Assembly (NCBI RefSeq): GCF_900660755.1 | Contig: NZ_LR215050.1 | Span: 930,001 to 994,000, forward strand | From: Acholeplasma hippikon | GTDB lineage: Bacteria > Bacillota_I > Bacilli_A > Acholeplasmatales > Acholeplasmataceae | DNA length: 64,000 nucleotides | Reading direction: 5' to 3' | Shown here: positions 12,733-16,574 of the stretch, one piece after another | Position numbering within the stretch: position 1 is the stretch's first letter | Layout of the letters: each line of letters opens with the position of its first letter | Position numbers and translations under genes: made by a program | The notes under the pieces: generated by a model | Seen by the model: the letters and a program-made list of their open reading frames with translations, nothing else | The model's database searches: none | What the model was told of the DNA's origin: nothing

Positions 12733-12770
12733 AACCTAGTTCATATTAATTTGAACTAGGTTATTTTTTT
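12733..12770. terminator. Bidirectional terminator between dps and dnaB
   Basis: Perfect hairpin AACCTAGTTCA / TGAACTAGGTT (12733-12762) with a T run on the plus side (12764-12770) and an A-rich run on the other (TTTTCTTTTT on the minus strand). It serves both convergent genes. Confidence 0.88.
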
Positions 12771-14112
12771 AATTTGCTGGTTCTTCTAAATCTGAACGTT
12801 CAGAGAATCTTGAATATTGAGATGCAAAGATGAATTTAATATCACCAATCTTACCTTGACGGTTTTTTGCGATAATAACTTCAGCATCACCCGTAGGCTC
12901 ACCTTCACGATTATAGTAATCATCACGGTGAATGAACATAACGATGTCGGCATCCTGTTCGATAGATCCTGATTCTCTTAAGTGAGCAAGTAACGGACGC
13001 TTATCCGCTGTTTTTTCAACATCACGAGATAACTGTGATAAGGCAATAACTGGAATCTTTAATTCCTTAGCCATTTGTTTTAATGAACGAGAGATTTTAG
13101 AAACTTCTTCTTGACGATTAGGATTTTTACTATCATCGCCACGAATTAATTGTAAGTAGTCAATAACTACTAAATCTAATTTTTTCTCTTGAGAAAGTTT
13201 ACGACATTTCGCTCTAATTTCACTAATACTTGCTGATGATGAGTCATCAAAGAAAATATTATAACTATTTAGGCGGTCTGTGTATAACTCAAACTGTTTC
13301 CATTCTTGAGCAGTTAAATGTGCCGTACGTAATTTAGAGTTTTCAATATTACTTAAACTTGAAATCATACGGGTAACTAATTGTTCGTTACTCATTTCAA
13401 GTGAGAAAATTGCAACGCCAGCTTTACCGTTTTTATTATACATAGCAGCATTGACTGCCAAGTTCATTGCAAACGCAGATTTACCCATAGATGGACGAGC
13501 AGCAAGAATAATTAATTCTTCTGGTTGTAAGCCATTAGTATGTTGATCAAGTGTTGCAAATCCAGTTGTCAAACCAGTAATGTTACCTTTGTTATTTTGT
13601 AGGTAAACCATTTTTTCTTTGATTTCTTTAACAACTTCTGGAACAGGTTTAAACGCTCCCACTTTTCTTCTTTGTGATAACTCTAAAACTTGTGATTCAA
13701 CACGATCTAAATATTCAGATGCATGAATATCAGATGTTAATCCATCTGTTGCTAAACTTTGTGTGACTTTGATTACATCACGTTTTAATGAGAAATCTTT
13801 AATAATTTCAATGTAAGTTTCTAAGTGTTCTAAAGAAACCGTGTAGTTAGATAATTCAATAATTGCTGAGATACCACCAACAGATTCTAATTGTCCTTTA
13901 GATTCTAAATTAGACGTCACTGAGGTATAGTCAATATTTTTACGTTGATGATATAAATCTTTAATTGATTGGAAAATCATGAGGTGTGAGCCATCAAAGA
14001 AATCTTCTTCTCTCACTTCATCAAGTATTGTAGGCACTGTTTTTTGGTCTAAAAACATTGCCCCTAAAACTGACTTTTCCGCATCCAATGAATGAGGTAA
14101 TTTATTTGCCAT
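12769..14112 (-). CDS. dnaB: Replicative DNA helicase (DnaB family)
   Basis: 447 aa; the hexameric helicase that unwinds DNA at the fork (called DnaC in Bacillus). The N-terminal primase-interacting domain begins LPHSLDAEKSVLGAM. The RecA-like ATPase carries Walker A AARPSMGKSAFAMN (about residue 205), Walker B LVVIDYLQLI (about 315) and the C-terminal EQDADIVMFIHRDDYY motif. It starts 2 nt after the gdpP-rplI stop, keeping the yybT-rplI-dnaC order known from Bacillus. Confidence 0.96.
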   Translation of the reverse strand: MANKLPHSLDAEKSVLGAMFLDQKTVPTILDEVREEDFFDGSHLMIFQSIKDLYHQRKNIDYTSVTSNLESKGQLESVGGISAIIELSNYTVSLEHLETYIEIIKDFSLKRDVIKVTQSLATDGLTSDIHASEYLDRVESQVLELSQRRKVGAFKPVPEVVKEIKEKMVYLQNNKGNITGLTTGFATLDQHTNGLQPEELIILAARPSMGKSAFAMNLAVNAAMYNKNGKAGVAIFSLEMSNEQLVTRMISSLSNIENSKLRTAHLTAQEWKQFELYTDRLNSYNIFFDDSSSASISEIRAKCRKLSQEKKLDLVVIDYLQLIRGDDSKNPNRQEEVSKISRSLKQMAKELKIPVIALSQLSRDVEKTADKRPLLAHLRESGSIEQDADIVMFIHRDDYYNREGEPTGDAEVIIAKNRQGKIGDIKFIFASQYSRFSERSDLEEPAN

Positions 14113-14114
14113 TT

Positions 14115-16574
14115 TTAGTCTCTCTTTTCAATGATATTTACTTCAAAACTTGCTTTTACACCCTTATCTAAGTTAACTGTTACTGGATAAATACCTGCAG
14201 ATACAATATCTGTTGTTAATTCAATCTTTTTCTTATCGATAACAACACCGTGTTTCTTTTCAAATTCTTCAACGATTTGTTTAGATGTGATTGAACCAAA
14301 ACGTTTTCCATCTGCACCTACTTGAATTGGTAATGTAATTGATTTACCATCGATTTCTGATGCAATTTTTCTCATTAAATTAAGATATTGGATTTCTTGT
14401 TGTTTTTGTTTTTCTTTTTGTTCAGCTAAGATAGCTAAGTTTTCTTCTGTTGCTTGTACAGCTAGTTTAGATGAAATTAGGAAGTTTGCATAACCACCTG
14501 CAACTTCGATAATAGCATCCTTTTTGCCTTTTCCTTTAACGTCTTCTAATAAAATAACTTTCATAGGTTCACTGTCTCCTCCGTACTCTAATTCTAGTAT
14601 ATGTTTTAATTGTTGATAAGCGTCATTAACTTCAATATCTTTAATTTGTGTTGCAGCACTATTTAAGTGTCCGCCACCACCCATTTCTTCCATGATGACT
14701 TGAACATTAATTGCACCGTAACTTCTCGCTGAAATACCAACATCTGTTGGGCTAATTTTTACAATTGTAAATGCTGCATCAATATCTCGGATATCTAATA
14801 ATTGTTCAGATACTTGAGCGATAAATGCGCGATCTTCGTGAATTTCTTCAACGTTAATGATTGCGAAACGATCTAAGTAAATCTCTACTTTTCCAAGTAA
14901 ATTATTTAACTCAATCATGCGTTCTAAATCATTTCTTAACCATGTTTTAACCATGATTGTATCTGCGCCATATTCTTTTAATTTAGCCGCAACTTCAAAT
15001 GTTCTTGTGTTTGTTCTATATGTGAATGTATTGGTATCCACAATTAAACCCGCATACATAATAGATGCTTCTAATGAATCTACTTTAATTTCTCTTTCAA
15101 AGAAATCAACAAGTTCCATTAATAATTCAATTGTTGACGAAGCAGATGGATGGATATATCCAAATACGCCAGATATTGATGTTTCATTACCACGGTGATG
15201 GTCAATAACTGCTGTTTTAATATTTAAACTTAATAGTTCTGGAGAATGCACAATTTGAGATGTTTGTGTATCTAAAACTAATAATAATGTATCTTTTGTA
15301 ACTTTTGTTAAAGCCTCTTCAGTTCGAATCATATGATTTAAAACTGGATGATTTGAACTTGCTAATAAATCATAAACATATTTAACCGTTGGATCTAATT
15401 TTTCTACGTCTAATACAACATATGCTGCTGCATCGGGTGATGTTAATGCCATTTTTAACGATAAAATCATTGATCCAAACGAATCTAAATCCGTTTGATT
15501 ATGACCCATAATTAAAACTTCTCCAGCCTTATCCAATAACTCTCTTAAGGTCTGACTTGATTGTCTTGCACTTACTCTTGATGATTTAACCAATGATTCT
15601 AACTTCGCACCAAAGTAAGCAATCTTTTGGTTTTGAATATTAACAACCGCTTGGTCTCCACCACGTTTCTCGGCAAGTTCAATCGCATTTTGTGCATAAT
15701 CAGATAACTCATCATACGCTAAATCCCAGCTTGCAATACCAATAGATGCTGTAACTCTTAATCCGTATTTTAATGAGATATCACGAATACGTTCTAAGAT
15801 ATCAAATTTCTTTTGCATCATTTGTTCTAAATTCTTGCGTTTAACTAAGAGAATAAAACGATTATCTCCATATGGTTTTAAATAACCATTAAATTCTTCT
15901 GCCCAATCTGCAATACTTGATAAATATTCACCTTTAATTGATGATTGTTCAGAAATATCAAATGCTTGCATATTTTCTTCAAAGTTATCTAAGTTAATAA
16001 TTCCAATTGCTGGAATATTGTCTTGATATTCTTGTTTCACTTGTTCGCGTGATGTTACATTAAATAAATATAAAACTTTATATGTTGGTTTGTAAATAAC
16101 CTCATATTTTTCATTTCCAACCGCAATTGTCACAGGTGTAAGTTGACCTGAAGCAACATAATCAGATAATGTTGAAGATATTTGATTTAAAAACTTATCA
16201 ATTAAATTATCATTAAAGATTGATCTTGCATACTGGTTAACCCATTTAATTTCTTGAACTTGTTCATCTAAAACAATAATTCCGATTGGAAGTTCATGGA
16301 ATGCATCATCACCAATTTGGTTCACACGAGGTGATAATTTAGACCATCTAGCTAAACGATTCTGTAAATTCTTAATATGACGACGATAATTATGCGATAC
16401 ATAATATAAAATGTAGCCAAAAGTAATAAATGTTAATCCTATACATACTAAAACGAGGGTGTCTTTATATTGAACAAAAGAACCAAGCCAGTTTGTATAT
16501 GTTAAAACAGCATACGTTACATATGCTAAAACTAATAAGATAATCGATATTATAAGTATAATTACTCTTTTCAA
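14115..16574 (-). CDS. gdpP: Fusion of cyclic-di-AMP phosphodiesterase GdpP with ribosomal protein L9
   Basis: 819 aa. Residues 1-670 match GdpP (YybT): two membrane helices (about 5-25 and 38-58), a PAS-like region (70-180), a degenerate GGDEF domain (185-315), then a DHH/DHHA1 phosphodiesterase with H358, D362, D364, D435, D458-H459-H460, D513 and GGGGH (632-636). Residues 671-819 are a complete bL9, starting [15 protein letters not shown]. No stop separates the parts. GGAGGA codons 11-13 nt before the L9 ATG (14564) look like a retained Shine-Dalgarno, so free L9 may also be made. Start is a TTG after AAGGTAGG. Expected roles: c-di-AMP breakdown at the membrane and 50S structure. Confidence 0.9.

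Follow-up and report, generated by a model that had tools for sequence, protein, structure and literature searches.

Comparison of sequences across relatives indicates, at a probability that we put at about 0.82, that a single gene of Acholeplasma hippikon gives rise to two products: a free ribosomal protein bL9, initiated from within the gene, and a selected, membrane-bound fusion of the c-di-AMP phosphodiesterase GdpP to bL9. The gene is located in a stretch of 64 000 nucleotides, referred to here as the window, and its features are listed in Table 1. According to the proposed mechanism, ribosomes starting at the TTG codon (16574) would synthesize a membrane-anchored GdpP, a linker of approximately six residues and then bL9, while other ribosomes would enter at the Shine-Dalgarno sequence at 14576-14582 and the ATG at 14562-14564 and synthesize free bL9 destined for the 50S subunit. 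The arrangement would have had a single origin, when a gdpP gene tightly coupled to rplI lost its stop codon, the L9 ribosome-binding site already lying inside the 3' end of gdpP, and the long product would be a selected form of GdpP. Internal initiation, membrane location and enzyme activity are all predictions from sequence.

Table 1. Features of the fused gdpP-rplI gene and its surroundings (window positions), with the tandem second L9 loci of other genomes
Feature	Position	Strand	Basis or remark
Fused gdpP-rplI open reading frame, 819 codons	14115..16574	(-)	TTG start, TAA stop; NF011110 match
GdpP part, codons 1-670 (membrane helices, PAS, degenerate GGDEF, DHH, DHHA1)	14565..16574	(-)	
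Hydrophobic helix 1, residues 2-29	16488..16571	(-)	Hydrophobic sequence and AlphaFold2 helix
Hydrophobic helix 2, residues 37-60	16395..16466	(-)	Hydrophobic sequence and AlphaFold2 helix
PAS domain (PAS_GdpP), residues 84-173	16056..16325	(-)	Pfam PF21370
Degenerate GGDEF domain (GGDEF_GdpP), residues 193-317	15624..15998	(-)	Pfam PF24898
DHH phosphodiesterase domain, residues 353-509, catalytic motifs intact	15048..15518	(-)	Pfam PF01368; invariant residues
DHHA1 domain, residues 582-660	14595..14831	(-)	Pfam PF02272
Linker of ~6 residues (665-670, GGDSEP), last GdpP helix to L9	14565..14582	(-)	Also encodes the internal Shine-Dalgarno sequence
Internal Shine-Dalgarno sequence GGAGGAG	14576..14582	(-)	Pairs with 16S tail; conserved in relatives
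Internal ATG, bL9 codon 1 (fusion residue 671)	14562..14564	(-)	Kept in relatives
bL9, 149 aa, stop codon included; only L9 of the genome	14115..14564	(-)	Pfam; L9 gene count
DnaB replicative helicase, next gene	12769..14112	(-)	Named from sequence and the known gdpP-rplI-dnaC order; context only
Tandem second L9 loci in other genomes	L160 (G020:C47:31500-38500); L206/L210 (G418); L177-L182 (G305, G311, G298)		

The original prediction had described complete GdpP motifs and a complete L9 in one 819-codon frame without a stop, and this was confirmed both by the frame, which opens with TTG, closes with TAA and holds 819 sense codons uninterrupted by a stop, and by the domain content. All six Pfam domains of the fused protein scored over their cut-offs, with Ribosomal_L9_N at residues 671-715 and Ribosomal_L9_C at residues 735-815. 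The bL9 part carries the N- and C-domains and the Gly24-Tyr25 motif, and the fused copy is the sole bL9 of this genome. A residue missing from the GYA-NFL stretch of this L9 was considered as a mark of fusion and rejected, being absent too from 30% of free L9s. In the GdpP part, H358, D362, D364, D435, D458-H459-H460 and D513 were invariant in an alignment of 26 sequences, and the GGGH motif was at least 90% conserved in the same alignment. The domains and residues expected of a c-di-AMP phosphodiesterase are thus present, and hydrolysis of c-di-AMP and location in the membrane are predicted. The genome has one c-di-AMP cyclase (DAC) domain (PF02457) and each of 14 relatives has at least one, therefore the substrate of GdpP is expected to be available in all of them. 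Three DAC domains were found in G305, a draft assembly with 5% contamination in which an artefact is possible.

An AlphaFold2 model of the fusion (mean pLDDT 83.7, pTM 0.41) placed two long helices at the N-terminus, followed by the PAS, GGDEF and DHH/DHHA1 domains and a closing helix at residues 649-664; L9 follows the short linker, and its long connecting helix spans residues 710-741. Owing to the low pTM the model leaves undecided the position of L9 relative to GdpP and of the domains relative to one another. The fused gene begins with TTG, preceded by a GGTAGG-like site, and this weak first start may limit the output of the fusion relative to free L9. At the other end, only 2 nt separate the L9 stop codon from the ATG of dnaB (14110-14117), and translation of dnaB may consequently be coupled to that of L9.

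The GGAGGAG that had been noted upstream of the L9 ATG was located 11 nt from that codon. The 16S tail found in this genome, GGATCACCTCCTTTCT, pairs with it at -11.5 kcal/mol, which ranks 7th among 46 gene starts when calibrated on the genes of the window, and 15 of the 2727 ATGs in the window pair as strongly as the L9 ATG. Spacing in the genus Acholeplasma is 11-13 nt, which is long and counts against an internal start.

The internal start was then compared across relatives. Among 131 distinct fused genes, all taken from genomes with a single bL9, the first codon of L9 was ATG in 124, GTG in six and TTG in one, and no other codon was found; a wider set of 149 fused genes gave 141, seven and one, respectively. 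Where methionine was replaced by valine, in four genera, the codon was always GTG, although GTG accounts for only 0-17% of the valine codons in those genes. Median pairing with the 16S tail was -10.3 kcal/mol at the L9 start against -1.8 kcal/mol at 2137 other ATGs inside these genes, every L9 site exceeded the 5% tail of this control, and a four-base Shine-Dalgarno core was present at 94.7% of L9 starts compared with 6.9% of control ATGs. The GG core occurs in all three codon phases, where it is read as Gly-Gly, Gly-Asp, Gln-Glu, Lys-Glu and others. When synonymous codons were shuffled, the real pairing was stronger than the shuffled mean in 113 of the 131 genes (actual -10.5, shuffled mean -7.8), indicating that a good part of the strength of the Shine-Dalgarno pairing follows from the amino acids alone, with a further contribution from codon choice; the genes sampled are related, and these counts are not independent of one another. 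Judged from these comparisons, the internal start codon and Shine-Dalgarno sequence are kept at the nucleotide level, beyond the needs of the protein.

In five genomes the fused gene is immediately followed by a second L9: G298, G305 and G311, from one genus of family f9, and G020 and G418, from one genus of family f3. All five are draft assemblies, with each pair of L9 genes on a single contig. The free and fused copies adjoin within each lineage on the L9 tree, indicating two separate duplications. All five free tandem copies have a Shine-Dalgarno sequence and an ATG. In the fused copies beside them the Shine-Dalgarno sequence has been lost in all five (-2.8 to +0.4 kcal/mol) and the start codon in three, where it has become AAG or ACT. 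Gly24, which we take to be part of the rRNA contact of the L9 N-domain, is present in all 149 single fused L9s, in 26 of 26 free L9s and in all five second L9s, and has been lost from all five fused copies beside them. The fused frame nevertheless remains open in 5/5, and dN/dS of the fused L9 between species (NG86) was 0.12 for G020-G418 and 0.33 for G305-G311, with free copies at 0.13-0.16. By this measure the fused L9 domain of the two-L9 lineages is under purifying selection. The two functions are, on this comparison, separable: the internal start and Gly24 are required for ribosomal L9, whereas the fused domain is selected without either. Loss of Gly24 argues that ordinary rRNA binding is not why the fused domain is kept, at least in these lineages, and suggests that its role within the fusion need not be ribosomal. 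In two genomes of genus g85 (G110 and G339), with sister genomes carrying two L9s, neither L9 nor a full-length GdpP was found; G110 is listed as 97% complete. A further candidate two-L9 genome, G420, was rejected as its two hits are most likely one gene split by contig ends.

Selection on the junction was assessed over the eight codons that precede L9. On the tree these codons have changed amino acid at least 250 times, the linker residues varying freely, and approximately 18 nonsense changes would be expected if stops were harmless (a rough parsimony count, using a nonsense/missense mutational ratio of 0.072 and one assumed transition bias), while none was seen. As stops at the junction are not tolerated and the L9 domain is kept even beside a separate free L9, the fused form appears to have a selected role of its own.

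These observations bear on other explanations of the locus. If the fusion were neutral, with GdpP activity and free L9 alone of consequence and the L9 tail a tolerated by-product, loss of the stop would have been without cost once an internal site already made L9, and it is in keeping with this that in S. pneumoniae, where gdpP and rplI overlap, deletion of rplI gave no phenotype (PMC10576035). The absence of any of the expected junction stops from the fused genes of the tree is difficult to reconcile with neutrality, as is purifying selection on fused L9 domains that can no longer be started separately, and we consider this explanation improbable. Less probable again is release of L9 by a protease cutting at the short linker, with no internal initiation. 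The reduced model confidence of the linker between the last GdpP helix and L9 would suit a cleavage site; however, a protease reads amino acids rather than codons, and would account neither for a valine that is always GTG and a leucine that is TTG, nor for a Shine-Dalgarno sequence held while the amino acids change and the linker residues vary, nor for the decay of that sequence and of the start codon once a separate L9 gene exists.

It is scarcely credible that the fusion is the only product and that its membrane-bound L9 domain works in the ribosome. The open frame and the single copy of L9 would agree with such an arrangement, but the internal start codon and Shine-Dalgarno sequence are kept unless a free L9 exists, and a membrane-bound enzyme would seem an unlikely source of one L9 per ribosome. 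The production of free L9 besides the fusion, raised in the original prediction, is by comparison strongly supported through the same pattern of a start codon and Shine-Dalgarno sequence that are kept and then lost after L9 duplication. Under the preferred reading, internal initiation together with a selected fusion, the fused L9 domain most likely serves GdpP as a structural or regulatory element, and possibly couples the breakdown of c-di-AMP to the supply of L9 or ribosomes. A more specific form, in which the fused L9 functions within GdpP by sensing or docking to ribosomes or 23S rRNA and so couples c-di-AMP breakdown at the membrane to ribosome supply, the same codons being the only source of ribosomal L9 in the cell, seems to us unlikely. 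Tethering of ribosomes to the membrane by the fusion is possible, and a link between the state of the ribosome and c-di-AMP is an attractive, if speculative, idea.

The closest named relatives were A. equifetale, A. oculi, A. laidlawii and A. granularum, with 68-70% identity in the matched stretch. Family NF011110 was matched in all 31 genomes of the relatives set, in 29 of them over its cut-off. Across a sample of 395 genomes of the class, the full-length fusion was present in all sampled families of the order to which the window belongs and in families f9, f16, f19, f23 and f24, and was absent from the other families checked. It was also detected in genomes of 0.6-0.9 Mb from the same family as the window, which, judging by their size and placement, are probably phytoplasmas. 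Since every relative searched has the fusion, as do several other families, it is not an artefact. A tree of 101 GdpP sequences, 79 of them fused, required one change to the fused state and no reversals (SH-aLRT support of the fused clade, only 80%), and the survey of relatives for a junction stop, proposed as a check on the original prediction, found none among the fused genes of the tree. In unfused outgroups, including Lactobacillales, Shimazuella, Oceanobacillus, Erysipelotrichaceae and Ruminococcus, the gdpP stop falls between -20 and +35 nt relative to the start of L9, therefore loss of one stop codon would fuse the genes and leave the L9 start untouched. Other apparent fusions were rejected. 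The 397-aa L9 frames of two f11 genomes are open frames in GC-rich DNA and gdpP there has its own stop, and in the mycoplasma-like G441 a stop separates the two genes once TGA is read as Trp.

The window protein matched NF011110 / PRK14538, 'putative bifunctional signaling protein/50S ribosomal protein L9', at 1189.2 bits (cut-off 707) over residues 3-819, with the same domain order and over its full length. The interpretation put forward originally is supported in part: the fusion is real and conserved and the production of free L9 is strongly supported, while a tie of ribosomes to the membrane is a possibility; the fusion is not new to databases. That entry is a name for the fusion alone and says nothing of a nested start, of the single origin or of the two duplications, and many fused genes of other families fall below its cut-off. 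What is new here is this evidence on mechanism, and not the architecture itself. No discussion of a GdpP-L9 fusion was found in the open-access literature searched (including searches for PRK14538, GdpP in Acholeplasma and L9 in phytoplasma).

The gdpP-rplI-dnaC/dnaB cluster of Bacilli has the same genes, order and strand as the window; gdpP and rplI are adjacent and co-expressed there, with the rplI ribosome-binding site within the last 69 bp of gdpP (PMC6398277). It differs in that the two genes are separate, with the stop positioned as in the outgroups above. In-frame nested genes such as archaeal Cas11b (PMC11899642) and the short form of Salmonella SpaO (PMC13059759) resemble the proposed arrangement in producing a shorter C-terminal product from an internal start within one open frame. 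In Acholeplasma, by contrast, a ribosomal protein is predicted as the internal product and a membrane-bound second-messenger enzyme as the long one, and the nesting arose by fusion of two genes. Functions of bL9 beyond ribosome structure include polysome packing in Mycoplasma pneumoniae and mRNA binding in Pseudomonas (reviewed in PMC10931766).

Many Bacilli carry gdpP and rplI side by side; in one clade the two have become physically joined and have stayed so in every member sampled, 79 of them on the tree. Two lineages have since split the roles again, which distinguishes the needs of free L9 from those of fused L9 and offers a natural experiment on how L9 affects c-di-AMP metabolism. Where only the fusion is annotated, a gene for a ribosomal protein stays hidden, and in studies of the proteome or of gene essentiality in Acholeplasma and related bacteria bL9 could be overlooked or misinterpreted.
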